A stretch of DNA of 64,000 nucleotides from positions 179,867-243,866 of the forward strand of contig NZ_ML974131.1 in assembly GCF_004143485.2 (NCBI RefSeq). Direction: 5' to 3'. Positions 2,345 to 61,005 of the stretch are shown piece after piece. The position numbers and the translations under genes are program-made. Below the pieces are notes generated by a model. That model had not been told where the DNA came from. It saw only the letters and a list, made by a program, of their open reading frames with translations, and searched no databases. The stretch is from Halorussus amylolyticus. Its GTDB lineage: Archaea; Halobacteriota; Halobacteria; Halobacteriales; Haladaptataceae. How positions within the stretch are numbered: position 1 is the stretch's first letter; every line of letters begins with the position of its first letter.

Positions 2345-2348
2345 TCGA

Positions 2349-12925: not shown

Positions 12926-13058
12926 GGGTTCCAAAGTCCGCCTCGAACGGAATTCGCAACGAAAAGTACCTCCTTCAGTGGTCGTGGCTGTGCCCGCCAG
13001 TACCCCGGATTCATGACTGGCCACTTCTGTGTCGGCCACGCGCGGAGAGTCCCACAGT

Positions 13059-34958: not shown

Positions 34959-34968
34959 AGGACTTTGG

Positions 34969-36318: not shown

Positions 36319-37886
36319 CGGTACGCCAATTCCTCCATGTACTGCTGAAGCTTCTCGTCCGTCTCACGCCGCTCTTGTTCCAATTCGTCCAGTTCACGCA
36401 GCTTCTCGGATACGTCGATGGGTTCCTCCGGTTCGGTCGTATCCACGTAGCGCGGGACGTTCAGGTTCCAATCGTTCTCCTCAATTTCATCGAGGTCGAC
36501 AAGTCGGCTGTGATGGTTCTCCTCACGGCCCTGCTGGTACGTCTCGGCGATGTAGGCTACACCTTCGTCGGTGAGTTCGTTTTGGTTCGAAAGCTCTTCG
36601 AACACCCGCACGCCGGATTCTCGAAGCTCTTGGTCCTCTGCGTAGATGAACTGGACCTTCTCCTTGCGGTCTTCGGACTTGTCTTTGTTCAGAATCAGTA
36701 TACAACCTGGCGACGAGGTGTTATAAAACAGATTTTCGGGAAGTGCTATGACGGTCTCCACAAGGTCGTCCTCCAGCACACTCTGGCGAATCGAACCCTC
36801 CGAGCGACTGCGGAACAGGACGCCGTTGTCCATCACGACGCCCGCCTTTCCCGTCTTGTTCAGGCTGGCGAGCATGTGTTGGACCCACGCCCAGTCGCCG
36901 CGATTCTTCGGCGGAAGCCCGTGGGGAAAGCGATTGTACGGTTCGTTGTCCTCAATCCATTCCTTGTCCCATTTCTTCTGGTTCCACATCGGATTCGCGA
37001 TGACGCGGTCGAACTGCATTAGGCCGCCCGAAGCGGGGTCCTTGAACTTCGGTTCGGTCATCGTGTTACCCTTCGCAATTTCCTCGCCCGGCAGGCCGTG
37101 GAGGAGCATATTCATCTCGCCGATGGCCCACGTGTTGAGGTTGCGCTCTTGGCCGTAAAGCGAGATTTGGTCCATTCGTCCGCCGTGTTCGCGGATGTGG
37201 TACGCCGAGTAGATGAGCATCCCACCAGAGCCACAGCACGGGTCATACACGCGGTGGCCGGGTTGGGGATCCACACACTCGACGATAAGTTGAACGACTT
37301 CACGGGGCGTGTAGAATTCGCCACCCTTCTTTCCGGCGTCGTCGGCGAACTGCCGGATGAGGTACTCGTAGGCGCGGCCGAAGATGTCGGGGTCGTCGAG
37401 GTTCTCGTTGCGGAGGTTGAGCTTGTCGAAGTGCGTGACCAGCTCGTCGAGCATGTCGTCGGGCAAGCGCTCTTTGTCGTTGAAGTCGACCGACGTGAGC
37501 ACACGCTCTTCGATGGTGTCGTTCTCGTTCTCGACGGCCTCCAACGCTTTCTGGATGGTCGCGCCGATGTCGGTGCTCTGCTCGCGGATGTGGTCCCACC
37601 GAGCGCGGTCGGGGATGTAGAACTCGTGGAGGTCCTCGTCGGTGTACGCGATGTCCTCGTCGATGCCTTGGTCGATGTACTCCTCGGCTTCCTCTTCGAA
37701 GCGGTCGCTGAGGCGCTTGAGGAACATCAGCCCGAAAATATAGTTTTTGTAGTCTGCCGAGTCGATACTGCCGCGCATGATGTCGGCCGCTTCCCAAAGG
37801 TGGCTCCGAAGCGTATCGAGGTTGAGGGTGTCGGTGGCGTCCCCTGCGCCGTCGGCACCCGGCAGCGTATCCTGCTCAGAATCCAT
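36315..37886 (-). CDS. hsdM: type I restriction enzyme methylase subunit (HsdM)
   Basis: The adenine methyltransferase of the complex, 523 residues. The AdoMet motif I is VYDPCCGSGGMLI and the catalytic motif IV is IANPMWNQKKWD, an NPMW variant of N/D-PP-Y/F. GEFYTPREVVQLIVECVDP and RNLNTWAIGEMNMLLHG are HsdM-typical. The first 160 residues are the N-terminal helical domain. Start chosen at MDSEQDTLPG. First gene of the operon hsdM-hsdS-hsdR, followed by the YgjP-type gene. Confidence 0.96.
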   Translation of the reverse strand: MDSEQDTLPGADGAGDATDTLNLDTLRSHLWEAADIMRGSIDSADYKNYIFGLMFLKRLSDRFEEEAEEYIDQGIDEDIAYTDEDLHEFYIPDRARWDHIREQSTDIGATIQKALEAVENENDTIEERVLTSVDFNDKERLPDDMLDELVTHFDKLNLRNENLDDPDIFGRAYEYLIRQFADDAGKKGGEFYTPREVVQLIVECVDPQPGHRVYDPCCGSGGMLIYSAYHIREHGGRMDQISLYGQERNLNTWAIGEMNMLLHGLPGEEIAKGNTMTEPKFKDPASGGLMQFDRVIANPMWNQKKWDKEWIEDNEPYNRFPHGLPPKNRGDWAWVQHMLASLNKTGKAGVVMDNGVLFRSRSEGSIRQSVLEDDLVETVIALPENLFYNTSSPGCILILNKDKSEDRKEKVQFIYAEDQELRESGVRVFEELSNQNELTDEGVAYIAETYQQGREENHHSRLVDLDEIEENDWNLNVPRYVDTTEPEEPIDVSEKLRELDELEQERRETDEKLQQYMEELAYR

Positions 37887-38287
37887 GTACGAAAGCAACA
37901 CAACGCCGTGGCTTATGAGTTTCTGTATCAGATGTTAGGTTGATTTGGGCGTCATCTACGAGTGGGGATCTTCGATACACACGGGGCTTCGAAGCATTGA
38001 GAAACACGGTGGGGGTAGTACTTCGACTGTGTTTAATGGTTCTCGCAAATTCAGAATGGGGCAGGGGTGTTTTGAGCGATGTGCTCACTTCATTTAATGC
38101 GGGGGGTAAGCTCATCAATCAGAGAGACCGCAAAACCAGTATCATAAAATATATAAATTATTTATTACTATTCTGTTCAATACTGCTCATTGCTCAGTCT
38201 CGAATGTAAATTTGTAGGAACCTATATTCACAAAATCATCTCCTTGTAAGTGAGCCTATGATAGCATTAGCTACCTGCTCTTGGATG
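37887..38287. other. 401-base region upstream of hsdM without a recognised gene
   Basis: Turns AT-rich after about 38130. It should contain the hsdM promoter. No frame of convincing codon use is present. Confidence 0.55.
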
Positions 38288-38797
38288 TTATTCCACAGTA
38301 GGGTACTCCCAAACAAAAAGAGGAATCGAGAAATCGAAATAATTCGCTAAAACCGCGTGAACGTCGTTCTGCGTGCGACCCAATGTCGGGAAGTTCACGT
38401 AGTCTGGAATTAGCAGAACTCCTACTTCGACGTTTAGGCTATCGTCGAGACCATTTGATTCACGATAAGCGGCTTCCATCTTCATCAGATGCCAGTTTGC
38501 TCGCATCTGTTCACCCTTCTCGTGTTCGACCAGAACTCCGTCTTTGTATGCATCAAAACTCCCCCGACGAGAAAACGTACCATCTACAGTCTTGGCCTCA
38601 AACTTTGTCGAAACTTCCTGTTGCCAGCCAAGTGGGTCTAACCGCTTTGCTCGCTCCGACATATACTGATTTCCACCACCGTGTTTCTGATACGCAGTAG
38701 CGATTTCAACCAAATCTGTCAGAAGTTGCTTCTCTTCGATGATTTTCTTACCATTATTGAATGACCATGAATTACTGGAACATATGTGTGTGGACAT
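38288..38797 (-). CDS. BglII/BstYI-like PD-(D/E)XK protein (possible orphan restriction nuclease)
   Basis: A 169-residue protein. GWQQEVSTKF (E61-like), SFDAYKDGVLVEHEKGEQM (D and E-x-E/K spaced as in PD-(D/E)XK) and VEVGVLLIPDY correspond in order to the BglII/BstYI-type nuclease core, where a helix with aromatic residues (RANWHLMKMEAAY) follows the catalytic strand. No cognate methyltransferase is adjacent. AT-richer than neighbours. Tentative functional call. Confidence 0.6.
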   Translation of the reverse strand: MSTHICSSNSWSFNNGKKIIEEKQLLTDLVEIATAYQKHGGGNQYMSERAKRLDPLGWQQEVSTKFEAKTVDGTFSRRGSFDAYKDGVLVEHEKGEQMRANWHLMKMEAAYRESNGLDDSLNVEVGVLLIPDYVNFPTLGRTQNDVHAVLANYFDFSIPLFVWEYPTVE

Positions 38798-39048
38798 GAG
38801 TTTGACTTTCGCTGGACAATAAATAGGAGTACCGCCGTTTGCGTGACTACCTAGAACCGACTACATTCGCTGAGTTACGGTTCTGCCTCCTCAAAGCGAG
38901 ATGTTAATACCTGCTGAAGCACCCTTGCTTTTGCTGTTGATTAGAACCGATTTTACGCAAGTTCACACGCTCACTTAACGCTAAATGGCCAACCGCGCCT
39001 CCGATGGACATCATTCTATAGCGAGAGGGTTGCCAGCGTTCCTATAGT

Positions 39049-39498
39049 TCATTCTCTAGTGAGCGTCCAGCGTCGACCGCCATCAACGGAAAATGCACCG
39101 AGTCTAGTTACTGTAGGTTCAAGCGCCGTCTGCCAAAACGACCGCTTCGTGTCGTATCCTTCGCTAATATCTGTGATAGCCCACGCTCCATCGAGGAGGT
39201 CCTGTTGTGTGACGGCATCTGAATACTGGAGTTGCGTATACGGTACTCGAACCCCCGGATGGAGCCACCAGACGCGAGCGCGTCCGCCAACTTTCTTCGT
39301 AGAGAGAATGTGACGGTCGTGTAGTTCGGTGAGTTTATTGAGCGCTGTGCGCCGTGCCCACCCAAGCGACTCCGCAACTTCCGTAGCAGTCAGCGGCGCG
39401 TAGGGGTCGGAACGGCCAGCAATGATTTCGATGATAGTGAAGGGGTCTTTGCGATCTGCATATTGGCCGTGGTCGTCTCGTTCGCGATCATTGTTCAT
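39049..39498 (-). CDS. winged-helix transcriptional regulator
   Basis: A 149-residue protein. Residues 20-75 form a winged helix: DPFTIIEIIAGRSDPYAPLT, then a recognition segment TEVAESLGWARRTALNKL, and the wing STKKVGGRARVWWLH. The C-terminal half is of unknown fold. Reads away from the SWIM gene; the 200 bases between contain GGCATA half-sites and hairpins that could be its operator. Confidence 0.8.
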   Translation of the reverse strand: MNNDRERDDHGQYADRKDPFTIIEIIAGRSDPYAPLTATEVAESLGWARRTALNKLTELHDRHILSTKKVGGRARVWWLHPGVRVPYTQLQYSDAVTQQDLLDGAWAITDISEGYDTKRSFWQTALEPTVTRLGAFSVDGGRRWTLTRE

Positions 39499-39592
39499 TA
39501 CGTGTGGGTTCGAGTGTCTCTCTCATAACCTTTGCCCACGAAGGCATAAATTTCTAACTACCCGCTCTGAACGCCAAGCGCACCTTTTTGGC

Positions 39593-39612
39593 CTATGCCG
39601 TTGTAGGCATAG
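39593..39612. promoter_or_regulatory. palindrome CTATGCC-N6-GGCATAG, operator candidate
   Basis: Perfect 7-bp arms (39593-39599 and 39606-39612). A third AGGCATA half-site lies at about 39541-39547, closer to the regulator start. Located between the divergent regulator and SWIM genes. Confidence 0.45.
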
Positions 39613-39656
39613 ATGAGAAGTACCAGTCCCTCGGGGCGCTCTGCTCGGAAGAACGC

Positions 39657-39704
39657 CCGCGTGGTGAGGCACGCGGACTGTGGCTTCTCAGGTAGGAGAA
39701 GCCA
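39657..39704 (+). promoter_or_regulatory. two tandem hairpins ending at a start codon
   Basis: CCGCGTG-gtgagg-CACGCGG (39657-39676) and TGGCTTCTC-aggtag-GAGAAGCCA (39681-39704). The second stem closes on the A of the ATG of the SWIM gene, so it could mask or present the start codon. Confidence 0.5.
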
Positions 39705-40297
39705 TGAGGAAAAACACAACCGACCGGCAAAAGCGCATCGTTCAGGAACTAACCTTCGACGGTCGCACGGCCAAACGCGTCCGGTGGACTGAATGGGAGT
39801 TCACCATCGACGCACCGCACAAAATTCGCGTGACGAACGCGAGCTATGGCGTAGAGAAATTCAACCATGAGTATCGTGTGACGGTCGCGAACCACGAGGA
39901 CTACGACGGACTCTACATCCCACTCGCGTGTGACTGCCCGGCGTTCCATTTCGGGGATGACGACGCCGCGTGTAAGCACATGGTCGCGGTGGCGGTCTGC
40001 GGTGGTCCCGTCCTGCTCGGCGCGGCGATGGCCTATACTGGAACCGAACAGATTGACGAGCGTATTGCTCTAACTGATGGTGGCCGTCCCTGTGTCCGAC
40101 ACGGAGACCGTGATATCGAACCGGAGCGTGCCCGTGAACCCGAATCGAAGGGCTACCCAGCAAGCATCCGCATGACGCCACGGGAGCGTGCGGATGCGCA
40201 TGGCTTCACGCACGCTGATGGGTGTGATGCCGATGATTCGGGGATTGCGTGCTGGCGGTGTTACTACATTCGCAGCATTGATGAGGAGAGAATCTAA
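39704..40297 (+). CDS. SWIM zinc-finger protein
   Basis: A 197-residue protein. The SWIM motif C-x-C-xn-C-x-H is seen as LACDCPAFHFGDDDAACKHMVAVAV at about residues 75-99 (written here in two halves of the motif: CDC and CKH). SWIM proteins of haloarchaeal elements bind DNA or protein. A second possible metal cluster is in the tail (CDADDSGIACWRC). ATG at 39704 selected. Role in the element unknown. Confidence 0.82.
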   Translation: MRKNTTDRQKRIVQELTFDGRTAKRVRWTEWEFTIDAPHKIRVTNASYGVEKFNHEYRVTVANHEDYDGLYIPLACDCPAFHFGDDDAACKHMVAVAVCGGPVLLGAAMAYTGTEQIDERIALTDGGRPCVRHGDRDIEPERAREPESKGYPASIRMTPRERADAHGFTHADGCDADDSGIACWRCYYIRSIDEERI

Positions 40298-40444
40298 CGG
40301 AATCAAGACAACAAAATTGGCATTTTATTAACCAGTAGGTTGTATTCGATTCGTTCGGGGGTACTGGGACAGGTGGGCGGGTGTAGGGCGAAATTGTGCT
40401 CCCGCGAGAGCATCGGTGGAAGGAACGCTACGCTGAGAAGACCA

Positions 40445-41176
40445 ATGACACACACAGCACGACGAACGCTACTCAAATTGGCCGGGGGCATTGCCGCGCT
40501 CGGCAGTACAGGACTTGCAAGTACCGACCAAGCAACGCAAGAGCTAGCTATCAACGCGCCGTCTGACCAGCAATATCAATACCAGTTCGCAGTTACAGGC
40601 CAGCTTGAACAGACTGACCATGCCACACAGGCACCCATCAATAACGCTCACGTCACTGCCGACGCCGAAGACGACATTGACCAATGCCGTGTTCACGGCG
40701 TAACCCGTGGGGGATACGACTGTTATCAGTATACCGGAGATCTCGTGGCGTTCGTCGTCCCCGAGCGTCACATCTCGAAGTACACCATCTATCACAACGG
40801 AGCGGAAACTCACGCGCGTGACCTCTTGACCGAAAGACATCCGAGCGACGTGGCGTGCGGTCCCACGGATATGAATACGACAACCGGTGGAGACCAAGAT
40901 GGGGGTGAAAGCAGAAACGAGGACTTCTGTCCTCTCGATAATCGTGTCGCGATTATTCGAAACGGACCTCAAAGTGTAGGTCCTGTTCAGTATACGATTG
41001 GGGTCTCTGGTGAACTGGAACTCCCATCCGGACGGCGAGTTCGTCAGACCGAGGGTACTATTCGCTTTTCTGGTGGGACGGAAAAACGTGAGTTTGTGTA
41101 CTCAGGTGAACTCGTGCAGCTCTCCGTGAGCAACCATGCGAGTGTGCGGGTAACACAGGAGTCGAGCTGTGAGTGA
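40445..41176 (+). CDS. Tat-exported hypothetical protein, 243 aa
   Basis: Starts MTHTARRTLLKLAGGIAALG, a twin-arginine signal with hydrophobic core; no lipobox cysteine follows. The mature part is beta-rich with paired cysteines (CRVHG, DCYQY, ACGPT, FCPLD, SSCE at the end). Repeated strands QYQYQFAVTGQLEQ and VQYTIGVSGELELPSG suggest two similar beta domains. Codon use is less biased than chromosomal genes. No family recognised. Confidence 0.8.
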   Translation: MTHTARRTLLKLAGGIAALGSTGLASTDQATQELAINAPSDQQYQYQFAVTGQLEQTDHATQAPINNAHVTADAEDDIDQCRVHGVTRGGYDCYQYTGDLVAFVVPERHISKYTIYHNGAETHARDLLTERHPSDVACGPTDMNTTTGGDQDGGESRNEDFCPLDNRVAIIRNGPQSVGPVQYTIGVSGELELPSGRRVRQTEGTIRFSGGTEKREFVYSGELVQLSVSNHASVRVTQESSCE

Positions 41177-41871
41177 TATGGAAGAAACTATCGTCCACAA
41201 ATAGATGGGGAAATTATCCTCGTACATGCGGGAACACCTGAATCGAAGGGGTATATTCGAAAGGGAATCAGTAAGATTCCAGATAAAACACGATACTCAT
41301 ACACAACCGCTTGAGTACCGGATTCTGTTCTCCGATAAGAATACAGTTCTAACAACTGTTATAGATTGGTCACGATAATAATGCTGTCTAAGAAGTGGAA
41401 GAGGTATTGAGATACTGTGATAGAGTGGTCGAAGGTATGGTTTTTCATCTTTGCGCCATTGACAGCCTCTCGCCATCTTATAACATACCCCGTATAGAGT
41501 ACCTGGTGCAATATGCGGGGTATAGCGTCTGAGAAGGCCACTCGCAGGGTTTATGGTCGCTGCGATATGACTCACTCACACAGACGGAGGTGAACCTCGC
41601 AACCGCTCATCGGTACCTGAATTCACAAAAACGGCGACTGGTCATGTGAGGGCGTGACAGTCGCCGTCATGCAATCGCTTGAACCTCGCTATCCCATATG
41701 TCGTTCACGAGACACCGAGGGACACGACCCAGTGATGTGAGTCGGCCGTCTTCTCCTACGTCTTTGAACGGCATTAAGAGTATGGTCTACGTGCAGGGCG
41801 GTCCGAGCCTGTCGCTCACGTGCGTATTGGGATGGCGGTGAATTGCGCTCAGGCTTCAACCACACCGAGAA
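41177..41871. other. 695-base non-coding region of the element
   Basis: No gene supported; AT-rich to about 41560. It contains an imperfect hairpin with perfect 10-bp arms ACGGCGACTG/CAGTCGCCGT (41631-41640 and 41658-41667), which is a candidate replication origin or terminator. Confidence 0.6.
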
Positions 41872-42066
41872 ATGTCGAACACAAACGCAGCATCCGACTC
41901 GACTTCAAACCAACTCGTTGCGCCGTCCTGTGGGCACTGCGACAATGCCGTCGGGATTCTTGCTCTCGTCGGAGAGCAGAATCTCTACTGCTCGATAAGC
42001 TGTCTCATCTTCGCCAACGATTCCCTACACCAGACGGCGACCCAGACCGAGGGGGGTGAGACCTAA
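41872..42066 (+). CDS. small zinc-ribbon-like protein, 64 aa
   Basis: Reads MSNTNAASDSTSNQLVAPSC, then GHCDNAVGILALVGEQNLYC and SISCLIFANDS. Paired cysteines CGHC and CSISC suggest one zinc site. The stop overlaps the next gene start (TAATG), implying translational coupling. Probably a DNA- or protein-binding accessory of the element. Confidence 0.65.
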   Translation: MSNTNAASDSTSNQLVAPSCGHCDNAVGILALVGEQNLYCSISCLIFANDSLHQTATQTEGGET

Positions 42067-42260
42067 TGAGTGAAGCAGAGCAATCTGATGTCGGCGAGTT
42101 CGTCCGTGAGAACAGGGCCTTGCTCGTGCGGGTTCTCGCCTACGGGGATGCAGAAGGCCGGAGCTACGCTCTTGCGCTTCTCGCAAATGGCGGTGAGTCA
42201 CGCGACATTGAGGAAATCGAGCGCTTGCTCAACGAACTGAAACGCGAGAAAAAGCCATGA
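42066..42260 (+). CDS. small helical protein, 64 aa
   Basis: An all-helical acidic protein (EQSDVGEFVRENRALLVRVL, then YGDAEGRSYALALLANGG and a helix to KREKKP). Coupled by a TAATG overlap to the zinc-ribbon protein and convergent with the integrase, which ends 12 bases downstream. Could be an integrase partner or regulator, an inference from position. Confidence 0.65.
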   Translation: MSEAEQSDVGEFVRENRALLVRVLAYGDAEGRSYALALLANGGESRDIEEIERLLNELKREKKP

Positions 42261-42271
42261 TGAACGTGCAG

Positions 42272-43519
42272 TCAGTCGTTCGAGAGCGCTTCCACGAACT
42301 CCCCGGCGTCTTCGTAGAGTTCAGGTTGTTCCTCGAACAGCGTCATGAGGTCTCGGGTACGCTCGAAATCGTCGAGCAGGTCTGGGTTCTCATGTGCGAG
42401 TCGGAAAACGGCCCGACGGACTTTCTGTTGCTCTTCCCGTCTCGTCTCGGGGGCGCTGTACTCCAGCGCTTGGTGACACCAGACGCATTCTTCCTCGTGC
42501 CGCGGCGTCTCTTTCTCGCACCGGGGACACTCGACGGGACCAATCGGCTCAGGCTCATCGCTCGCAACCTCCATGCCGTGCAAGCGCGCGTACTCATCGT
42601 CCGCTTCACCGCCGAAACGAGCGACGTAGTGGGCCGTCTTGGGGCTTCCACGTTTGCGGCCCTGGCGGTCGTTGATGAACGCCTCGGTTTTGTCTCGCTT
42701 GGCGAGAAACGTCGCGTTCGACTTTCGGAAATTTGTGGGCGTGACGGGCTTGGTGACGCCAGCACGGTCGGCGGCGTCCTGGAAGATGTTCCGAAACTGC
42801 CGATAGCTGATGTCCTCTGGCTCATGCAACTTCGACCACAACGGTGCGTCAGGGTCGTCTGTGGGATGGTCTCGCAACCAGCGACGGAGATACGGCACGC
42901 TCGGGATGAGCGTAACAGTTCGTTGTCCCTGCTTTCCATCGGCCAGAAGCTGAAACCCGTGACGATGGTCGTTTACGTCACTGACCGTGAGGTTCTGAAG
43001 TTCGCCGCTTCGTGCACCGGAGTCGAACGCAACGGCGATGAGCGCCGCGTCACGAGCGTTCCGCGTTTCGTCCAACATCGACAGTACGTCGGTTTCCCAC
43101 TCCAGCATGTCTGCGGGGTCCGGGACCGGGTCGTAGCTGTTGCTCGTGCCCGACGGTATCCACGCGATGCTGTCGGGTTTCTCTTCGATATCGCCTTCAG
43201 TCACACGACCTCCGAACACGCGGAGCGCGGTACGGTAGTCGTGCTTCGTGTTCTCGTTGTCGTAGGTCTCGTTTATCCACACGACGAGGTCTTCGGCAGT
43301 CTCACGGTCGTTGAGGGCCGCGGCGAGTCCACCGACTTCTTCGGCCATCCGCGTGCAGTGGCGCAGGAGCTTCTCGCGGCGGTGGTCGCTGTATTCGGAG
43401 TCGAGGAGCTTCATCCGCCGGTTGAACAGCAAGAGTTTCTCGCGGTCGGCATCGGTGATGATTTCCGAAGTCTCGATGCGGTCGACAAGGGTCTCGATTC
43501 TGGCCTGTGGGTCGCTCAT
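42272..43519 (-). CDS. int: tyrosine recombinase/integrase with C-terminal zinc ribbon
   Basis: A 415-residue site-specific recombinase next to attR. The catalytic region shows R in FDSGARSGELQNL, NFR in TPTNFRKSNATFLAK (the usual H-x-x-R, here with N at the first position) and the nucleophilic Tyr in TAHYVARFG. The N-terminal SAM-like binding domain lies before residue 140. A C-terminal extension has a zinc ribbon CPRCEKETPRHEEECVWC (about 335-352), seen in several haloarchaeal integrases. It catalyses integration at tRNA-Thr. Confidence 0.92.
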   Translation of the reverse strand: MSDPQARIETLVDRIETSEIITDADREKLLLFNRRMKLLDSEYSDHRREKLLRHCTRMAEEVGGLAAALNDRETAEDLVVWINETYDNENTKHDYRTALRVFGGRVTEGDIEEKPDSIAWIPSGTSNSYDPVPDPADMLEWETDVLSMLDETRNARDAALIAVAFDSGARSGELQNLTVSDVNDHRHGFQLLADGKQGQRTVTLIPSVPYLRRWLRDHPTDDPDAPLWSKLHEPEDISYRQFRNIFQDAADRAGVTKPVTPTNFRKSNATFLAKRDKTEAFINDRQGRKRGSPKTAHYVARFGGEADDEYARLHGMEVASDEPEPIGPVECPRCEKETPRHEEECVWCHQALEYSAPETRREEQQKVRRAVFRLAHENPDLLDDFERTRDLMTLFEEQPELYEDAGEFVEALSND

Positions 43520-43558
43520 CTCTCGACTATATCAATTACTTCGAGGATATTGAACCTA

Positions 43559-43582
43559 GGGTTCAAATCCCGGCCTAGGCTT
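43559..43582. repeat. attR: right 24-bp direct repeat of the integrated element
   Basis: Identical copy of 28917-28940. It follows the integrase start by 39 bases and marks the right end of the element. Confidence 0.93.
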
Positions 43583-43676
43583 TCCGTATTTTACATCGTT
43601 CTCACGCCTTGAGCCCCATCTTCACAGCCACCACGCAACGACAACCATAAAAAAGAGACTCGCCACACGCTCCACC

Positions 43677-44741
43677 TCACCCATCAGGCTCGGGGTCGAA
43701 TATCTCGGGTCGTTCCTCGCCTTCGGCCGCCACGACCGCCATGCACCCCTTTCGAGCCACTCTCGTCAGTGAGTGGTCCACCAGTTTAACCGGGCCGGGA
43801 ACCGGGAACTCCATCGTCGCGACGGTCGCGGTGCCCGGCGGAACGGGCGTCGTCTCGACGTGCTTCTGCGTCGGGGATTCGAACGAACCTCTCGGATACA
43901 GCTCTTTCCAGACGTTCCCGATGGGGTGGAAACTGCTGGTGAGGTTCGGGCCGCCCGTGACGAAGTACACCCGCGCGGTGTCGCCCGTCTCGACGCTCAT
44001 CGCGCCGTGGCCGTCGGGCGTGATGGCGTACTGCTCGCCGTTCATCACGACGTAGGACGGTTCCTCGCGGGCCATTGCCGCAACGTCGAAGGCGTGGTGG
44101 CCCTCCTCGCCCGCGCGCTTGTCGGTGTAGAGTTCGTGCTGGCCGAGGTAGAATTCGTGGTCCACCTCGGGCAACCCCTCCTCGGGTTCGACGAGGATGA
44201 TGCCGAACATGCCCGCCGAGATGTGGGTGTCCATGTTCGGGACCGCGCAGTGGTAGATGAACGCGCCGGGGTAGGTCGCCTTGAACCGCAGGCGGGCGCT
44301 CTCGCCCGGCGCAATCGTGGTGGCGTCCGCGCCGCCGCCCGGTCCGTAGCACGCGTGGAAGTCCACGTTGTGGGGCAGTTCGTTCTCCTCGCCGTTCTCG
44401 AAGGTCAGGTCCACGGTGTCGCCCCGCCGGACTCGGACCATCGGTCCGGGGACTCGACCGTCGAACGTCATGTAGTCGAACGTGACGCCGTCCTCGATTT
44501 CGGCCGTCACCTCCTCCGAGCGAAGCGTCACCGAGACGGTCTCGGGTTCGCTCCGGTCTATCGGGTCCGGGATGTCAGTCGGGTCGGCCGCGACCCGCTG
44601 GGACGTGGTTTCGGCCGTCGTCTGTTGGTTCGTGGTCGTCTCGGTCGCTTGCGGTGTCGCGTCGCTCGAACATCCCGCGAGGGATGCCGCACCACCGAGG
44701 CCGATGCCCTGCAAGACGGTTCGCCGGGAAGTCGCTGGCAT
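43677..44741 (-). CDS. nirK: copper-containing nitrite reductase NirK
   Basis: Reduces nitrite to nitric oxide outside the membrane. The 354-residue protein has a Tat signal SRRTVLQGIGLGG and a lipobox LAGC. Two cupredoxin domains hold type 1 copper ligands (His in LPHNVDF, C-A-V-P-N-M and the Met in SAGM) and type 2 histidines (VDFHAC, IYHCAV, SSFHPIGNV). All are intact. The electron donor is probably the halocyanin encoded at 50954. Its upstream region has a TATA-like box (44841-44848) and a CGAA-N4-TTCG site. Confidence 0.95.
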   Translation of the reverse strand: MPATSRRTVLQGIGLGGAASLAGCSSDATPQATETTTNQQTTAETTSQRVAADPTDIPDPIDRSEPETVSVTLRSEEVTAEIEDGVTFDYMTFDGRVPGPMVRVRRGDTVDLTFENGEENELPHNVDFHACYGPGGGADATTIAPGESARLRFKATYPGAFIYHCAVPNMDTHISAGMFGIILVEPEEGLPEVDHEFYLGQHELYTDKRAGEEGHHAFDVAAMAREEPSYVVMNGEQYAITPDGHGAMSVETGDTARVYFVTGGPNLTSSFHPIGNVWKELYPRGSFESPTQKHVETTPVPPGTATVATMEFPVPGPVKLVDHSLTRVARKGCMAVVAAEGEERPEIFDPEPDG

Positions 44742-44863: not shown

Positions 44864-44896
44864 GCGGGCGGCGTCGAGGGACTCGACGCCGCCCGC
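44864..44896. repeat. perfect 15-bp inverted repeat between norZ and nirK, loop GGA
   Basis: GCGGGCGGCGTCGAG (44864-44878) pairs exactly with CTCGACGCCGCCCGC (44882-44896). It lies 110 bases beyond the norZ stop and before the nirK TATA box, so it may act as a terminator hairpin, but it has no U-run. Confidence 0.9.
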
Positions 44897-45005: not shown

Positions 45006-47297
45006 TCAGTCGTCGTCCAGCGCCGACTCGGCCACCACCGGGGCGTCACCCGGCGCGTCGCTCGGGGTGGAGTCGCGCCGGACGCGCACCTTCTGGACCA
45101 CGTCGTAGCCGAACACCAGCGTCCCGAGGATGAGGAGCGTGTCGCCCGGCATCCGCGCCCAGAACAGGAGCTGGACCAGTTCGCCCTCGTAGAACGCGAG
45201 GCTCCGGGCGGCGTCGTAGCTCTGGGTGAACGCCACCTCCAACTGGAGGAAGCCGACCGGGAGGAGCGAGAGGCCGACCATCAGCGCCAGCCCGACGTTC
45301 CAGAGCCAGAACGCCCGCCGGAGGTTGGTCTCGCGCCACTTCGATTCGGGCACCGCGATGCGGAGCATGTACGTCACCATCCCGAGCGCGAGGAAGCCGA
45401 ACGCGCCGAACATCGCGGCGTGGGCGTGAGCCACCGTGAGGTAGGTGCCGTGTTCGAAGTAGTTGATGATGGGGAGATTGATGAAGAACCCGAGCACGCC
45501 CGCCCCGACGAAGTTCCACACGCCGCTCGCGACGATGAACATGAACGGGAGCGTGTAGGGGAACGACTCGCCGCTCGTCGCCATCGCGCGGTACTGGCCG
45601 ATGGCCTCGTAGAGGATGAACACGAGCGGAATCAGTTCGAGCGTCGAGAACGCGCTCCCGATGGGCACCCACATGTCGGGCTGGCCGACCCACCAGTAGT
45701 GGTGCGAGACGCCGATGACGCCCGTGCCCATCACGAGCAGGGCCTGGACCATCACCGCTTTCTCGGCCGACCGCTTGCTCAGGAGGTTCATGCTGACCAG
45801 CGTGACGCCGACCAGCGCGACGATGAAGAACTCGAAGGCCCCCTCGACCCACATGTGGACGACCCACCACCGCCAGAACTCCGTGACGACGATGTTGGTC
45901 TGTGGCGTGTAGAGGAAGCCCGCGCAGAACAGCAGGGCGATGGAGCCACCAGCGTACAGAATCATGTGCGCGAGTCCGTAGCGCGGCTCGCGGTCGAGCA
46001 GGGGCTTGAGACCGCGCGCGGTCAGCACCGCCCACGCGAGGAAGCCGACGAGGATGCCGACCTGCCAGAGACGGCCAATTTCGAGGTACTCCAGCCCCTC
46101 GTTGCCGAGAATCCACCAGAGCGCGCCGTCGAAGTAGCCGTTCGCGCCGAACCAGATGCCCGCGAGCCCGCCCACGACCACGACCACGAGCGCGGCCAGC
46201 AGTCCGTTGACGTACCGGCCCTGATTCTTCGGTTCGCGGCCGGTCAGCAGGGGCGGGAGGAACAGCCCCGCACCGAGCCACAGCGTCGCAATCCAGAGGA
46301 TGCCGAGGTCGATGTGCCACGTCTTGGCGATGGCGAACGGAATCAGCGAGAGGAAGTCGATGCCGAGCGCCTCGCCGATGCCGAAGAAGGCGTCGCGCTC
46401 GACGTAGTAGTGCGCGAGCAGGCCGCCGAGCAGGACCTGCCCGACGAACAGGCCCGCACCGACCACGGCGAACCGGAGCGCGGCGGCCTGCCCGGGGAAC
46501 AGGCTCACCTCGCTCGGTCGGGGGACCGAGACGCCCTCGGTATCGGGTTCGGGGAGTTCGATGGACTTGTACAGCCACACCCCGAATCCGGCCCCCGCGA
46601 CGAGCAGCACCATGGCGATGACGCTCCACGTCATCGCCGCACCGGTGGCCTCGTTTCCGGCGGCGGGGTTGTACGGCCAGTCGTTGGTGTAGGTGTGTTC
46701 GGCACCGGGTCGCTCAGTGTGGGAGAACCACGCGGTCCAGAGCGCGAAGTCGGCGAACTGGCGAGCGTCCTCCTCGCTGGAAATCATCCCTCCCGGAACA
46801 CCGCGCTCGGGACTTCCCTCGTGGTAGCGCTCGACGTACACCTCGCGCACCTGCTCGTGGGCGTGCGCCTCCGCGGCGGAGTACTCGATGGTGTCGCCGG
46901 GCGCGCCGTCGCCGAGGTCGCTCTCGACCGACACGTCCACCGTCGCCTGCTGGCTCTCGTCGAGGTCGGCGTAGGACGCGCCGTACTCCTCGTCGGCGTA
47001 GTACTCGCGCATGTACTCGACCTTCAGGTCGAGCGCATCGGCGGTGAAGTCCTCGCCGTAGTACGCGCCGTTCCCGAGAATCGACCCGTGGTTCATCAGT
47101 CCGTTCGACTGGAACGCCACCTTGCCGTCCCGGACCTGCTCGGCGGTCACGAGCGTCTCGTCGTCGGGACTGACGACCTCTTTCGGAATCGGCGGCGACT
47201 CCTCGTAGGAGTACCACGCGCCGACGCCCATCACCGCCAGATTCAGGACGAACACGCCCGCGATTATCTTCGCAAGTGTCTCTCGTCGTACTCTCAT
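45006..47297 (-). CDS. norZ: quinol-dependent nitric oxide reductase (qNOR type)
   Basis: Reduces NO to N2O in the membrane using quinol. The 763-residue single polypeptide has a periplasmic-type N-terminal domain fused to the 12-helix catalytic core: one TM helix, an extracytoplasmic domain to about 250, then many hydrophobic helices. Heme and non-heme ligands are seen as WWVVHMWVEGAFEFF, VSHHYWW, and AHAHAAMFGAFG. This architecture (no NorC partner) identifies qNOR. Start ATG at 47295-47297. Located between nirK and the cupin genes; a CGAA-N4-TTCG site is 70 bases upstream. Confidence 0.95.
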   Translation of the reverse strand: MRVRRETLAKIIAGVFVLNLAVMGVGAWYSYEESPPIPKEVVSPDDETLVTAEQVRDGKVAFQSNGLMNHGSILGNGAYYGEDFTADALDLKVEYMREYYADEEYGASYADLDESQQATVDVSVESDLGDGAPGDTIEYSAAEAHAHEQVREVYVERYHEGSPERGVPGGMISSEEDARQFADFALWTAWFSHTERPGAEHTYTNDWPYNPAAGNEATGAAMTWSVIAMVLLVAGAGFGVWLYKSIELPEPDTEGVSVPRPSEVSLFPGQAAALRFAVVGAGLFVGQVLLGGLLAHYYVERDAFFGIGEALGIDFLSLIPFAIAKTWHIDLGILWIATLWLGAGLFLPPLLTGREPKNQGRYVNGLLAALVVVVVGGLAGIWFGANGYFDGALWWILGNEGLEYLEIGRLWQVGILVGFLAWAVLTARGLKPLLDREPRYGLAHMILYAGGSIALLFCAGFLYTPQTNIVVTEFWRWWVVHMWVEGAFEFFIVALVGVTLVSMNLLSKRSAEKAVMVQALLVMGTGVIGVSHHYWWVGQPDMWVPIGSAFSTLELIPLVFILYEAIGQYRAMATSGESFPYTLPFMFIVASGVWNFVGAGVLGFFINLPIINYFEHGTYLTVAHAHAAMFGAFGFLALGMVTYMLRIAVPESKWRETNLRRAFWLWNVGLALMVGLSLLPVGFLQLEVAFTQSYDAARSLAFYEGELVQLLFWARMPGDTLLILGTLVFGYDVVQKVRVRRDSTPSDAPGDAPVVAESALDDD

Positions 47298-47364
47298 ACA
47301 GTTCGGCGTTCCCCGTCGAGGGGCTTTTAATCGGGCCGCAGTTCCAGAAATTTGGAAACGCAGG

Positions 47365-47376
47365 CGAACGTGTTCG
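47365..47376. promoter_or_regulatory. CGAA-N4-TTCG palindrome upstream of norZ
   Basis: CGAACGTGTTCG, centred about 73 bases before the norZ ATG. Confidence 0.6.
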
Positions 47377-47432
47377 GACGATGCACGACACCGATATCGG
47401 ACGCCCGAACTGGCGGGCGGGGGAGGGCGCGC

Positions 47433-47482
47433 CCGGTGACACAAACAGCCGAGAAACGGCCGGTGACACAAACAGCCGAGAA
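47433..47482. repeat. two-copy tandem repeat, period 27 bp
   Basis: The 23-base unit starting CCGGTGACACAAACAGCCGA occurs at 47433-47455 and again at 47460-47482. It lies between norZ and the cupin gene, just beside the CGAA-N4-TTCG site. Confidence 0.9.
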
Positions 47483-47521
47483 CCGACGCGTCCGAAAAAA
47501 CAGAATCGACGCCTGCTCGAC

Positions 47522-47827
47522 TCACTCGTCCGAACGCGGAGCCAACACCAGTACCGCCACGCTGTCCACTTCAGCCTTGGGCGACACCTCCTCGCGGCCG
47601 TCGAATCGAAGGAGGTCGCCGGGTTCGAGGACGTGGCCCTCGCCGTCCACACGCACGTCGAGTCGGCCCGACACGAGGTGAACCACGATTTCGCGCTCGG
47701 GGTGGCGGTGGGCGGGCACCTCCTCGCCAGCGTCGAGCGAGAGGCGCACCGTTTTCGGCTCCGAACCGGGGAACGCGACTTCTCGCGGCGCGACTTCGAG
47801 GTCGTCTAAACTGACTGTCTCGACCAT
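47522..47827 (-). CDS. cupin-domain protein, 101 aa
   Basis: A small beta-barrel protein with the cupin motif 1 AGEEVPAHRHPEREIVVHLVSG (histidines for metal; positions 34-55) and motif 2 LEPGDLLRFDG. Probable metal-dependent sensor or isomerase. Start ATG overlaps the stop of the preceding DUF2249 gene by one base (TGATG), so the two are an operon. Confidence 0.9.
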   Translation of the reverse strand: MVETVSLDDLEVAPREVAFPGSEPKTVRLSLDAGEEVPAHRHPEREIVVHLVSGRLDVRVDGEGHVLEPGDLLRFDGREEVSPKAEVDSVAVLVLAPRSDE

Positions 47828-51473: not shown

Positions 51474-52616
51474 ATGTCCGAGCCAGCCGGTCGGTCGGGG
51501 AAATCGGCTCGTGCAGGCCAATCGACTCGGTCCAGCCAATCGGCTCGCGCGGGCGGCCCGCCCGCGCGAGTCGAGACGGACGAGCGCCCGTTCGTCCTCA
51601 TCTGGGAACTGACTCAGGCCTGTGACCTCGCGTGCGAACACTGCCGGGCCGACGCCGAGGTGAATCGCCACCCCGACGAACTCACGACCGCGGAGGCGAA
51701 GGCGCTCCTCGACGAGACCCGCGAGTTCGGCGAGAACCAACTGGTCGTGTTCTCGGGCGGCGACCCGCTGAAGCGCGACGACGCGACCGACCTCGTGGCG
51801 TACGGCACCGACATCGGCCTGCACGTCACGATGACACCGAGCGGGACCGCCTCGCTGTCCCGGAGCGCGGTCGAGGACCTCGCGGACGCGGGCCTCCGGC
51901 GGATGGCGGTCAGCATCGACGGCGCGACCCCCGAGACCCACGACGCCTTCCGGGGCGAGGACGGGAGCTACGCCGAGACGATGGAGGCCGCGCTCGCCGC
52001 GGGAGACGAGGGACTTCCCCTGCAGGTCAACACCACCGTCTGCAAGCAGACCGTCTCGGACCTGCCCGCCATCGCCGACCTCGTCGCCGACCTCGGCGCG
52101 GTCCTCTGGAGCGTCTTCTTCCTCGTTCCGGTGGGCCGGGGCGCGGCGCTCGACCCCATTACACCCGACCGGGCCGAATCGGTGATGGAGTGGCTGGCCG
52201 ACAACCGTGAGGTGTGGCCCTTCGGGGTCAAGACGACCGAAGCGCCTCACTACCGCCGAGTCGCCGTCCAAGCGGCCGACGGGCCGCCCCGCCGTCAGAT
52301 GGGCATCACCGCGGGCGACGGCTTCGCGTTCGTGAGCCACGTCGGCGAGGTGTACCCCTCGGGCTTCCTGCCGAAGTCGGCCGGGAACGTCCGCGACCGG
52401 AGCGTAGTGGACATCTACCGGAACGCCGACCTGTTCGAATCGCTCCGCGAGAAGGACGACCTGAAGGGCAAGTGCGGCGCGTGTCCCTACCGGAACGTCT
52501 GTGGCGGGAGCAGGTCGCGGGCCTACGCGTACACCGGCGACCCGCTCGAGAGCGACCCGCTCTGTGCGTTCGTTCCCGAGGGCTACGACGGGCCGCTCCC
52601 GCGGGGGGTCGCGTGA
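51474..52616 (+). CDS. radical SAM/SPASM protein (TIGR04053-like; heme-synthesis type)
   Basis: A 380-residue radical SAM enzyme. The cluster motif CDLACEHC follows IWELTQA at about residues 51-60, and FSGGDPL is the AdoMet-binding GGxP region. A SPASM tail has CGACPYRNVC and a late SDPLC. This family includes AhbD-like enzymes acting on Fe-coproporphyrin in the alternative heme route, in line with HemG next door. The first 38 residues are a low-complexity SARAGQ-type repeat encoded partly by a perfect 13-bp palindrome. Stop overlaps the next ATG. Confidence 0.88.
   Translation: MSEPAGRSGKSARAGQSTRSSQSARAGGPPARVETDERPFVLIWELTQACDLACEHCRADAEVNRHPDELTTAEAKALLDETREFGENQLVVFSGGDPLKRDDATDLVAYGTDIGLHVTMTPSGTASLSRSAVEDLADAGLRRMAVSIDGATPETHDAFRGEDGSYAETMEAALAAGDEGLPLQVNTTVCKQTVSDLPAIADLVADLGAVLWSVFFLVPVGRGAALDPITPDRAESVMEWLADNREVWPFGVKTTEAPHYRRVAVQAADGPPRRQMGITAGDGFAFVSHVGEVYPSGFLPKSAGNVRDRSVVDIYRNADLFESLREKDDLKGKCGACPYRNVCGGSRSRAYAYTGDPLESDPLCAFVPEGYDGPLPRGVA
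51544..51570. repeat. perfect 13-bp inverted repeat in the radical SAM gene, loop C
   Basis: CTCGCGCGGGCGG (51544-51556) and CCGCCCGCGCGAG (51558-51570) are exact complements. Encodes residues 24-33 of the low-complexity N-terminus. Confidence 0.92.
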
Positions 52617-52969
52617 TGTCCGCGCTCGACCGAACACGTTCGGGACAGTCGCTTCGGGCGTCGGACTCGGACTCAGAATCCGTGACCGAAGTCGCCGAGC
52701 GCGAACCGCCGGAATCCGACGATTCGCCCGACCCCGAACCGGCGGTCGCCCACCTCCGCGAGCGCGGCGAGCGCGTGGCCCGGCGGGAACTCGACACCGC
52801 GCTCGCGCGCTTGGCGGCCAGCGGCGAGGTAACGCCCGCCGAGCGCGCCGCGGTCGCTCGCCTCGCGGATGACCTCGCCAACACGCTAATCGAGGAGTGG
52901 GCGTCGAACCTCGCCGACGCCGAGCGCACCGACATCGAAACCGCCCTCGACCTTCTGCTGGAACGATGA
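52616..52969 (+). CDS. GluTR dimerisation-domain-like small protein, 117 aa
   Basis: After a disordered acidic N-terminus (about 40 residues), the sequence AVAHLRERGERVARRELDTAL, then LAASGEVTPAERAAVARLAD resembles the helical C-terminal dimerisation domain of glutamyl-tRNA reductase (HemA). No catalytic or NADPH domain is present. Coupled between the radical SAM gene and hemG (ATGA overlaps on both sides), which supports a role in tetrapyrrole metabolism. A CGAA-N4-TTCG site overlaps its first codons. Confidence 0.8.
   Translation: MSALDRTRSGQSLRASDSDSESVTEVAEREPPESDDSPDPEPAVAHLRERGERVARRELDTALARLAASGEVTPAERAAVARLADDLANTLIEEWASNLADAERTDIETALDLLLER
52631..52642. promoter_or_regulatory. CGAA-N4-TTCG palindrome inside the GluTR-like gene
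   Basis: CGAACACGTTCG within codons 6-9. It could be an internal promoter element for the remaining part of the operon or a chance match, since it lies inside a coding frame. Confidence 0.4.
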
Positions 52970-54261
52970 CAGTCGGCGTCGTGGGCGGCGGACTCACCGG
53001 TCTCGCGGCCCACCACTACCTCCGGGAAATGGGCGTCGAGAGCCACCTCTTCGAGGCCGATTCCGAACCCGGCGGGGTCGTGCAAAGTCGTCGGGTCGAG
53101 GGCCGCGTCCTCGACCTCGGCCCGCAGCGAACTCGCCTCACGCCGACTCTGGCCGAACTCGTCGAGTCGCTCGGACTCGGTGACGAACTCCGGGAGGCCG
53201 CCGACGTGCCGCTCTACGTCTACCACCACGGGAAGCTCCGACGGGTGCCACAGACGCCCCGCGAGGCGGTCGCGACCGACCTGATTTCGTGGCCCGCGAA
53301 GCTCCGCGTCCTGCTCGAACCCCTCACAGGACCGCCCCGAGACGACGAGACGGTCGAAGAATTCCTGACCCGGACGTTCGGCTCCGAGGTCGCCCGGAAC
53401 TACTTCGGGCCGCTGTACGGCGGTCTCTACGGTTCGCACCCCGACGAGATGCCGATGGGATACTCGCTCTCGCGGGCGCTCGATTCGGCGGGCATCGAGG
53501 GGAGCGTCCTCCTCTCGGTCGCGAAAAAGGCCTTGAGCGGCCGGGACCCGCCGCCAATCGCGTCGTTCGACGCCGGACTCCAGCGACTTCCCGAGGCGCT
53601 CGCCGAGGCGCACGCCGGGAGCGTGCGCCTCGGCGCGCCGGTCCGGGGGGTTCGGCGCGCCGGAACGGGCGAGGGCGGCGACGAAGGCGACCGGCCGCGG
53701 TTCGTCCTCGAAACGCCCGACGACGAGGTCGCGGTCCGCGACCTCGTCGTCACCACCCCGGCCGACGTGACTGCCGACCTGTTCCGGGACCTCGCGCCCG
53801 ACTCGGCGGCCGCGCTCGACGACCTGCGGTACAATCCGCAGGTGCTGGTCCACCTCCGCTCGGACGCCGACCTGACCGGCGCGGGCTATCAGGTCCAGTA
53901 CGACGAGTCGTTTCGGACCCTCGGGACGACGTGGAACGCCAGCCTGCTCGACCGCGACGGCGTCTACACCTGCTATCTCGGCGGTGCGCGAAATCCCGAG
54001 CTGGTCGAGTGGGGCGACGACCGACTCGAATCCGTGGCGGCCCGGGAGTTCGAGGCGATTACGGGCGAGTCGGCGCGGGCGCTGTCGGTGCATCGACTGG
54101 AGCGCGGGATGCCAGCCTACGACCGGAGTTGGACCGCGCTCGACCGGGTTTCGATGCCCGAGGGCGTGCATCTGTGTACGAACTACGCCGCGCGGGCCGG
54201 GATTCCGGGGCGGATTCGGGAGGCGAAGGCGGTCGCCGGCCGACTGGCCGAAACCGCGTAG
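52966..54261 (+). CDS. hemG: protoporphyrinogen/coproporphyrinogen oxidase-like flavoprotein (HemG/PgoX type)
   Basis: A 431-residue FAD enzyme. The dinucleotide-binding motif VGVVGGGLTGLAAHHYL is at residues 3-18, then a RVLDLGPQRTRL region and FGPLYGGLYGSHPDEMPMGYSL. It oxidises a porphyrinogen in late heme synthesis (family function); whether it acts on coproporphyrinogen or protoporphyrinogen cannot be read here. Heme supply would serve the NO reductase next to it. Confidence 0.88.
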   Translation: MTVGVVGGGLTGLAAHHYLREMGVESHLFEADSEPGGVVQSRRVEGRVLDLGPQRTRLTPTLAELVESLGLGDELREAADVPLYVYHHGKLRRVPQTPREAVATDLISWPAKLRVLLEPLTGPPRDDETVEEFLTRTFGSEVARNYFGPLYGGLYGSHPDEMPMGYSLSRALDSAGIEGSVLLSVAKKALSGRDPPPIASFDAGLQRLPEALAEAHAGSVRLGAPVRGVRRAGTGEGGDEGDRPRFVLETPDDEVAVRDLVVTTPADVTADLFRDLAPDSAAALDDLRYNPQVLVHLRSDADLTGAGYQVQYDESFRTLGTTWNASLLDRDGVYTCYLGGARNPELVEWGDDRLESVAAREFEAITGESARALSVHRLERGMPAYDRSWTALDRVSMPEGVHLCTNYAARAGIPGRIREAKAVAGRLAETA

Positions 54262-58791: not shown

Positions 58792-59088
58792 GTGAACACG
58801 AGCGCGCTCGTCGTCGGTGCGACCGCCCTCGCCCTCCTCGCCGCTGGCGTGAGTATCGCTCGCGGGAATCTGTGGCTGTTGGCGAACTACGACCCGGAAA
58901 GAGCCGCCGGTGACTCGCGCGTCGCGCGAGTCACCGGCGGCACAATCGTCGCGTACGGCGTCGTCACCGCGGGTCTCGCGGTGGCCCTCCGGAGGGGTCC
59001 GGTCGCCGACGGGTGGTGGCTCGCGTGGACGCTCCTCACGCTAATCGTCGCGTTCGGGGTCGCCGCGGTCGCGTCGGGCCGGGCGTAG
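58792..59088 (+). CDS. small integral membrane protein, 98 aa
   Basis: About three hydrophobic helices (residues 4-25, 52-68, 75-95) joined by a charged loop RGNLWLLANYDPE. GTG at 58792 is chosen since the TATA-like TTTATGA is about 25-30 bases upstream; ATG 58765 would add nine residues. A perfect 19-bp palindrome (58903-58941) encodes residues 38-50 (AAGDSRVARVTGG). I do not recognise the family. Confidence 0.72.
   Translation: MNTSALVVGATALALLAAGVSIARGNLWLLANYDPERAAGDSRVARVTGGTIVAYGVVTAGLAVALRRGPVADGWWLAWTLLTLIVAFGVAAVASGRA
58903..58941. repeat. perfect 19-bp inverted repeat inside small membrane protein gene, loop T
   Basis: GCCGCCGGTGACTCGCGCG (58903-58921) and its exact complement (58923-58941), single-base loop. 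Longest palindrome seen in the window. Confidence 0.95.
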
Positions 59089-60111: not shown

Positions 60112-61005
60112 ATGGCTGGCGAAGATGTCAGCGAGTCGCCGCCCGGGGGCGGCGACTCGCTGGAGGGGTGGCTCGATTCGAAGGCCGAGGAGTTGGGGGT
60201 GAGTCGGGACGAACTGCTCGCGCAACTCCGAACCGGTAACGGCGACGGCCCCGACGCGTCTCAGACTCTCGACACGTCCGAGGAAATCGAGGCGCTCCGC
60301 CGGGAGTTCGTGGACCGACTCGAAGCCACTCACGACGACTTCGAGACTGAAGTCGAGGACGCGCGCGAGGAGTTCGACGAGAAGATTCAGGACGTGCGCG
60401 ACCGGGTGATTCAGGTCAAGCGCGAGACCGACGGGAAGGCCCCGAGCGACCACGACCACGCCGAACTCGCGCCCGCGTCGGTCGCGGACCGCGCCGACGA
60501 CCTCGCGGCCGAACTCGACTCGCTCACGGAGCGAGTCGCCGAGTTGGACGAGACCGTCGAGACCGGCTTCGAGAACTACGAGGACGTGTTGGAGTATCTG
60601 ACCGACGCGACCGACGACGTCGAGACCAAACTCACCACGCTCGCGGAGGTCACCGTGGACCTCCGCGACCAGGTCGAAATGCTGTCGGCCCGCCACGCGA
60701 CCCGCGCGGCCGCCGACGAACTCGCTACGCTCGCCAATCGTCGCGGGGTCGAGAGCGCCGCGTGCGGCCACTGCGGCCAGACGGTTCACGTCGGCCTGCT
60801 CGCCTCTCCGAAGTGCCCTCACTGCGCGAGCACGTTCAACGACGTCCAGCCCAAACAGGGCTTCTTCGGGTCGCACACGCTCGTCGTGGGCGACCCGCCC
60901 GCGCTCGAAGGCGAGCGCGCCGACTGGGACATCGACCGCGTGGCCGAAAGCGACGCCGCCGACCACTCGGCGGCGCTCGACGACATGCTGGAGGACGACG
61001 AATGA
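60112..61005 (+). CDS. coiled-coil protein with zinc ribbon, 297 aa
   Basis: After an acidic head (residues 1-55), long heptad-like helices run from about 55 to 205 (EEIEALRREFVDRLEATHDD, LDSLTERVAELDETVETGF). A zinc ribbon CGHCGQTVHVGL and CPHCASTF is at about residues 220-245, then an acidic tail. A perfect 16-bp palindrome encodes residues 6-17. Its stop overlaps the start of the next gene (ATGA). Possibly a structural or DNA-associated protein; not recognised. Confidence 0.82.
   Translation: MAGEDVSESPPGGGDSLEGWLDSKAEELGVSRDELLAQLRTGNGDGPDASQTLDTSEEIEALRREFVDRLEATHDDFETEVEDAREEFDEKIQDVRDRVIQVKRETDGKAPSDHDHAELAPASVADRADDLAAELDSLTERVAELDETVETGFENYEDVLEYLTDATDDVETKLTTLAEVTVDLRDQVEMLSARHATRAAADELATLANRRGVESAACGHCGQTVHVGLLASPKCPHCASTFNDVQPKQGFFGSHTLVVGDPPALEGERADWDIDRVAESDAADHSAALDDMLEDDE
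60129..60162. repeat. perfect 16-bp inverted repeat in the coiled-coil gene, loop GG
   Basis: CAGCGAGTCGCCGCCC (60129-60144) pairs exactly with GGGCGGCGACTCGCTG (60147-60162). It encodes residues 6-17. Confidence 0.94.

Follow-up and report, generated by a model that had tools for sequence, protein, structure and literature searches.

Template switching is a rare source of clustered mutations. Rickettsia palindromic elements and REP, which can also place palindromes in frame within genes, are repeated families of one sequence. For yeast, the available part of PMC8604942 describes spacer inversion and multi-nucleotide amino-acid changes by template switching, with a signal in 39 genes over the evolution of S. 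cerevisiae. The accessible text of PMC4060949 reports a small excess of 6-9-bp repeats in coding sequences. In nematomorph mitochondria, the portion of PMC6649704 at hand describes perfect coding inverted repeats with few imperfect ones, which are gained and lost between species and have a biased pairing phase. Its authors propose template switching, and contrast the Rickettsia elements with the nematomorph palindromes. The same class of object as that studied here, perfect inverted repeats with arms of at least 10 bp and short spacers, has been surveyed in 118,019 genomes (PMC13155455); in its accessible passages archaea have the lowest density, and no word of the main text starts with 'Halo'. 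The literature searched (inverted repeat, palindrome; palindrome matches judged by title and the start of the abstract) contained no report of such hairpins for Halorussus.

Perfect hairpins in the window

The window, i.e. the whole 64-kb stretch of DNA that was analysed, lies in contig C2 of a 3.78 Mb haloarchaeal genome (G000, the window genome), which its relatives place in the genus Halorussus. It contains 11 perfect hairpins with arms of at least 13 bp and loops of at most 6 nt, the arms being 13-19 bp long:

58903-58941, plus strand: 19-bp arms, 1-nt loop; encodes AAGDSRVARVTGG in the gene at 58792-59088 (+)
2218-2256, minus strand: 18-bp arms, 3-nt loop; in the PIN_9 gene at 1925-2392 (-)
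8251-8284, plus strand: 15-bp arms, 4-nt loop; in the MobA-like NTP-transferase domain gene at 7979-8590 (+), encoding RATTAAYAAVVA ahead of CDMP
9876-9910, no strand: 16-bp arms, 3-nt loop; between the divergent predicted genes at 9332-9799 (-) and 10011-11399 (+)
10048-10077, plus strand: 14-bp arms, 2-nt loop; N-terminal part of the arylsulfotransferase-like gene at 10011-11399 (+)
20782-20814, plus strand: 16-bp arms, 1-nt loop; in the predicted gene at 20458-21189 (+)
44864-44896, no strand: 15-bp arms, 3-nt loop; between the predicted gene at 43677-44714 (-) and the NorB/COX1-like gene at 45006-47525 (-)
51544-51570, plus strand: 13-bp arms, 1-nt loop; N-terminal extension of the radical SAM gene at 51474-52616 (+)
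53601-53635, plus strand: 15-bp arms, 5-nt loop; in the HemG-like amino oxidase gene at 52966-54261 (+)
53719-53751, plus strand: 16-bp arms, 1-nt loop; in the same HemG-like gene, 52966-54261 (+)
60129-60162, plus strand: 16-bp arms, 2-nt loop; near the N-terminus of the acidic predicted protein at 60112-61005 (+)

An exhaustive scan recovered all eight hairpins listed in an earlier note on this DNA; the total is 11 because that list missed those at 20782 (16 bp), 53601 (15 bp) and 53719 (16 bp). The hairpin at 58903-58941 has exactly the 19-bp arms and 1-nt loop given there, and the one placed at 2219 exists but starts one base earlier. The note had also read six of the hairpins as in-frame linkers. 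Judged by Pfam matches and gene calls this is only partly right: 8251 sits in the core of the NTP-transferase domain, 2218 lies within the PIN_9 domain, 53601 and 53719 lie within the oxidase, and 9876 and 44864 are outside predicted genes. Those at 10048, 51544 and 60129 are near N-termini.

A dispersed intergenic repeat of Halorussus occupies 12700-12930 of the window and contains an 11-bp hairpin at 12888; pieces of it, 72-100% identical, occur at many loci (L017, L072, L142, L124, L071, L119 and others). An Rfam scan of three sources returned a tRNA and a piece of 16S rRNA, and nothing else.

Abundance and specificity

With the same limits, 73 hairpins were found in the 460-464 kb sampled from the window genome, about 157-159 per Mb. 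This extrapolates to some 600 in the whole genome, if the rest is similar. The sister species G006 has 272 per Mb in a 500-kb sample, and 300 per Mb in a smaller sample of 100 kb. Poly-G/C tracts were excluded from the hairpin counts that follow, except for the tally of 113 loops given below.

Under a second-order Markov null (Markov-2) for the 464-kb sample, 1.1 hairpins with arms of 12-14 bp and 0.00 with arms of at least 15 bp are expected, against 26 and 56 observed. Shuffling of synonymous codons within predicted genes gave 0.40 hairpins with arms of at least 15 bp against 40 observed in the window genome, 0.10 against 35 in G006, and 0.00 against 0 in nine pooled hairpin-poor Halorussus genomes. 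The earlier claim that such hairpins are rare by chance thus holds under both controls, including the codon shuffle, which the note itself had proposed and which fails to reproduce the count.

The excess is specific to inverted repeats. Those of at least 13 bp occur at 159, 272 and 233 per Mb in three genomes versus 5 in a pool of nine, whereas the corresponding values are 28, 96 and 50 versus 29 for direct repeats and 2, 2 and 0 versus 3 for mirror repeats. A general excess of slippage or repeats was rejected as an explanation, as neither direct nor mirror repeats are raised in the window genome. In G006, close direct repeats of at least 13 bp are about three times commoner than in hairpin-poor congeners.

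Unlike chance repeats, the arm-length counts of the window genome drop from 8 to 14 bp and then rise at 15-17 bp; G006 has a broad plateau at 13-18 bp, and the longest arm is 26 bp. Loops are 0-4 nt in 85 of 113 matches (arms at least 12 bp, loops at most 12 nt, overlaps and poly-G/C tracts still included). Complementarity directly beyond the stems is at background (about 0.3), i.e. the edges are sharp. Stems of 15 bp with 0, 1 and 2 internal mismatches number 55, 10 and 8, so that decayed copies are few; the hairpins are young or maintained perfect. In a loose clustering of the pooled hairpins of the window genome and G006, 165 out of 209 were singletons, and most of the linked ones had GC-rich motifs alone in common.

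Two further structures were seen in the window genome. Back-to-back poly-G/poly-C tracts, in one case 16 G and then 24 C, occur at L008 17785-17824, L018 19730-19763 and L021 10843-10880; they may be phase-variable or reflect problems in the assembly. Two copies of a 198-bp element (92% identity), at L013 6925-7117 and L017 1129-1323, carry a pair of neighbouring GC-rich hairpins, which were included in the counts.

GC content and genomic context

When the window genome was divided into 2-kb bins, no hairpin was found in the 90 kb below 60% GC, and the density was 36 per Mb at 60-65%, 287 at 65-70% and 500 at 70% GC or more, the last from 10 kb only. High GC is needed, but it was rejected as the sole cause because G009 (69% GC) has none in 60 kb and Nonomuraea (72% GC) has no arm above 10 bp in 50 kb. 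The hairpin-free part of the window from 20.8 to 44.8 kb fits this dependence, as an AT-richer island takes up part of it. This island (32000-44000, GC 0.53-0.57), possibly a recent acquisition, has no hairpin with an arm of at least 10 bp and a loop of at most 12 nt.

The spacing of the hairpins is irregular. Predicted genes contain 49 out of 73 hairpins in the window genome and 68 out of 136 in G006, and on these positions a role as intrinsic terminators was rejected. The view in the earlier note of a recurrent, non-random, hairpin-forming class that does not consist of terminators is supported, codon shuffling failing to reproduce the count and most orthologues lacking the palindromes. Outside predicted genes lie 62 of the 136 in G006, in about one fifth of the sequence, and 23 of the 73 in the window genome, in 23% of it (both with crude gene calls). 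Partial purging of coding hairpins would lead to such a higher density outside genes.

Comparison with orthologous sequences

Palindromes are missing from most orthologues. Only 36 of the 209 hairpins could be aligned between the window genome and G006, so that most events are unpolarised, and one locus is perfect in both species. The net length change is zero in 11 of the 36, positive in 20 and negative in 5, and of the 25 differences other than zero, 19 are divisible by 3. Palindromic insertion, as suggested in the earlier note, therefore describes some sites, exemplified by the 2218 hairpin, which is an exact in-frame insertion of 39 nt relative to G006, but it fails as a general account: zero net change leaves room for rewriting in place, the sequences are mutually unrelated, and several lie in conserved domains.

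Differences inside gapless hairpins are spread evenly over the three codon positions (41/46/47), whereas those in the flanks are not (50/43/102), which indicates a process that rewrites regardless of the protein. Pairing of codon positions 1-1 and 2-3 is found in 4 of 117 hairpins versus 218 of 1680 six-bp repeats. The use of reading-frame phase as proof of selection was set aside as weakened, because the 6-bp background repeats already carry most of the bias.

The gene with the 58903 hairpin encodes a membrane-like product of 98 residues without a Pfam match, and its only good orthologue was found in G009 (60% amino acid identity). An alignment counted by eye gives, relative to G009, 9 differences among the 19 bases of the left arm and 4 among those of the right arm; with this single outgroup, the comparison suggests that the left arm was rewritten, and it is consistent with copying from right to left. 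G006 appears to lack the gene, its alignment having a gap between 58685 and 59058 of the window.

Relative to G006, the 20782 hairpin is 6 nt longer, with an identity of 0.61 in the hairpin and 0.71 in the flanks, and that at 60129 is 3 nt longer. The right arm at 51544 equals the G006 sequence, and most of its left arm lies in a stretch absent from G006. The 53719 hairpin has been rewritten without an indel relative to most orthologues, its outer 9 bp being common to G006. The 53601 hairpin is perfect also in G006 and G003 and quasi-palindromic in other Halorussus; the G006 spacer is the inverse of that in the window genome with one mismatch, an inversion seen at this one locus.

A further hairpin of the window genome, C2:19509, lies in a P-type ATPase gene. 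Polarised by an outgroup, it has a right arm equal to G010 over 14 nt and altered codons in the left arm and loop, which turn D-A-D-R-E into G-D-D-R-A (three amino acids); compared with most of the 18 other genomes there is no indel. Since G006 and G016 also have Gly at the first of the altered positions, that change may be older than the hairpin. At both 53601 and C2:19509 the orthologues are partly paired and the carrier is perfect, i.e. an imperfect repeat has become perfect in its original position. C2:19509 exemplifies arm copying without net length change; in several other gapless cases both arms have changed. G006 has a hairpin elsewhere in the P-type ATPase gene with changes on both arms. 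The G006 hairpin C1:2019257 has six differences on alternating sides, all at third codon positions and with one amino-acid change. Both strand polarities of copying seem to occur, among few polarised sites.

Distribution within Halorussus and beyond

Densities per Mb (arms at least 13 bp, loops at most 6 nt, samples of 60-80 kb unless stated) fall into three tiers within the genus: 157-300 in three species, 33-67 in five and 0-17 in nine. The first tier comprises the window genome (157, 464 kb), G006 (300, 100 kb) and G012 (233, 60 kb). The intermediate values rest on 2-4 hairpins each and are 67 in G003 (60 kb) and G015 (60 kb), 50 in G002 (60 kb), 38 in G001 (80 kb) and 33 in G007 (60 kb). 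Densities are 17 in G005 (60 kb) and G014 (60 kb), 12 in G010 (80 kb), and zero in G004, G008, G009, G013, G016 and G017 (60-80 kb each) and in G011 (13 kb). The sister species G003 (L215 1272) and G001 (L218 4845) have a common 15-16-bp hairpin near the ATPase gene, with one loop base different.

Outside Halorussus, G018 has none in 60 kb, and 20 of 23 genomes sampled at 20 kb each have none, the others (G019, G033 and G053) having one each. E. coli K-12 has one arm of at least 13 bp in 50 kb (14 bp, loop 6). In a covariance-model survey of 145 genomes of the order, 127 had no match and the highest counts were in G006 (10), G012 (9), G002 (6), the window genome (4) and G021 (4); with only 150 or 49 candidates scored per genome, this survey is a rough index. 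A single origin in the genus was rejected, as the starred branches of a tree of the rpoB region force at least three changes; this tree is poorly resolved, was scored with a trait cut of our choice (30 per Mb) and leaves out G011.

Proposed origin of the hairpins

We propose, with a probability of roughly 0.7, that the hairpins are scars of local, sequence-independent template switching associated with quasipalindromes, which is unusually intense in GC-rich DNA. While DNA is replicated or repaired, a nascent 3' end would fold onto a short inverted seed with a turn of 0-5 nt, be extended by about 10 more bases along its own complementary arm and then go back to the normal template. This would leave a perfect, sharply bounded stem of about 13-20 bp, which replaces the other arm in place or, if the return slips, comes as an added arm or an added complete hairpin. 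Frame-breaking and harmful products would then be purged by purifying selection, so that the surviving hairpins lie between genes, in variable segments of proteins and, in some cases, in conserved domains. The excess, the specificity for inverted repeats, the short loops, the sharp edges, the GC dependence, the patchiness among congeners, the rewriting in place, the one inverted spacer and the mostly in-frame length changes are direct observations; the fold-back step of the polymerase itself, and a lineage-specific change in replication or repair that would raise its rate, are what we infer from them. Edges this sharp speak against an origin by correction of quasi-palindromes that were already long, and the seeds must be short. 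Template switching alone is challenged by the several gapless cases with changes on both arms, which need either more than one switch or mismatch-by-mismatch correction in an extruded hairpin. Furthermore, gains in length reach +115 nt, and some of them are larger than a single fold-back would yield. The small share of alignable hairpins (36 of 209) also counts against the proposal, as does the failure of every gene tested to explain the patchiness.

Such correction could also be taken as the whole explanation. Mismatch or excision repair would act on each mismatch in an extruded hairpin or cruciform separately, in one direction or the other and with no template switch, purifying selection keeping the harmless direction. 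The mosaic patterns on both arms, the alternating third-position differences at C1:2019257 of G006 and the strong local GC dependence speak for it. As the full account we consider it unlikely, since mismatch repair adds neither single arms nor entire hairpins and produces neither the rewriting of one arm seen in the ATPase gene nor the spacer inversion, and the MutS and NucS families are present in hairpin-rich and hairpin-poor genomes alike. Template switching from short inverted seeds accounts for the rewriting in place, the spacer inversion, the gains of one arm, the short loops and the sharp edges. Repair of extruded hairpins may explain mosaic two-arm cases such as C1:2019257, and both processes may act.

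The presence of the Rad50 hook, ExoVII, MutS, DinB and NucS families does not track the hairpin trait; the Rad50 hook (PF04423) matched only 4 of 20 genomes and was silent in a Haloferax control, so this test says little. In 17 of 19 genomes (Halorussus and two relatives) the best NucS_C match carries a flag for one in-frame stop codon, which is perhaps the stop of the gene itself followed by read-through rather than a broken gene.

Selection for a function in DNA or RNA, such as transcript processing, attenuation or chromosome structure, would account for the perfect pairing with few decayed copies and for the 53601 hairpin being kept in three species. It is nevertheless improbable in our view: a single alignable locus stays perfect in the sister species, nine congeners are almost without hairpins, spacing is irregular with no common sequence, and the differences are not steered to synonymous sites. 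We give very little weight to palindromic mobile elements (REP, RPE or MITE-like) inserted into genes, which the gapless rewriting, the freely varying arm lengths and sequences, and the 165 singletons among 209, with GC-rich motifs alone linking most of the rest, contradict, in spite of the clean 39-nt in-frame insertion at 2218 and the few hairpins that are part of a dispersed intergenic repeat. DNA amplification can produce perfect fold-back chimaeras, but a sequencing or assembly artefact is hardly credible, given that several separate assemblies, with contig numbers from 4 to 80, contain hairpins, that these are located in open reading frames and that length differences are mostly in frame.

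Returning to template switching, we put forward tentatively a further idea, towards which we would not yet lean. Some Halorussus lineages might possess a heritable hairpin-writing mutator of fixed reach (stems of about 13-18 bp, loops of 0-4 nt, sharp edges), which converts GC-rich DNA genome-wide, drives in-frame protein change and is switched on or off within the genus.

Comparison with known systems

In this group of salt-loving archaea, genomes contain hundreds of hairpins each, apparently rewritten in place by an error in DNA copying. These rewrites alter many proteins, and in many close relatives the error is hardly seen. Template switching here appears to be a major shaper of the GC-rich parts of the chromosome. 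Clustered amino-acid changes or linker insertions in such genomes can be mutational scars and not adaptation.

The Halorussus hairpins resemble Rickettsia palindromic elements and REP in being palindromes within genes and in frame, but differ in that nearly all are unique. Quasipalindrome template switching in E. coli and yeast likewise yields perfect short-loop inverted repeats from imperfect ones and homogenises arms. Its signal is weak or local in the available parts of those reports, whereas the Halorussus samples contain about 160-270 stems of at least 13 bp per Mb, in some species of the genus only. The type of mutation is known; the literature searched does not describe it at such intensity, across an archaeal genome or with an on/off pattern among the species of one genus.

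Going by the portion of PMC6649704 at hand, the published case that comes closest is that of the coding palindromes in nematomorph mitochondria, which share the perfect repeats inside protein genes and the scarcity of imperfect copies (here 55/10/8). Those are mitochondrial and reach 284 bp, whereas the Halorussus hairpins are archaeal, have arms no longer than 26 bp, occur at hundreds of sites and are a trait that some congeners show and others lack. Hairpin-rich and hairpin-poor species within one culturable genus offer a natural comparison for the control of fold-back synthesis, a question that the same portion of that paper leaves open for nematomorph mitochondria.
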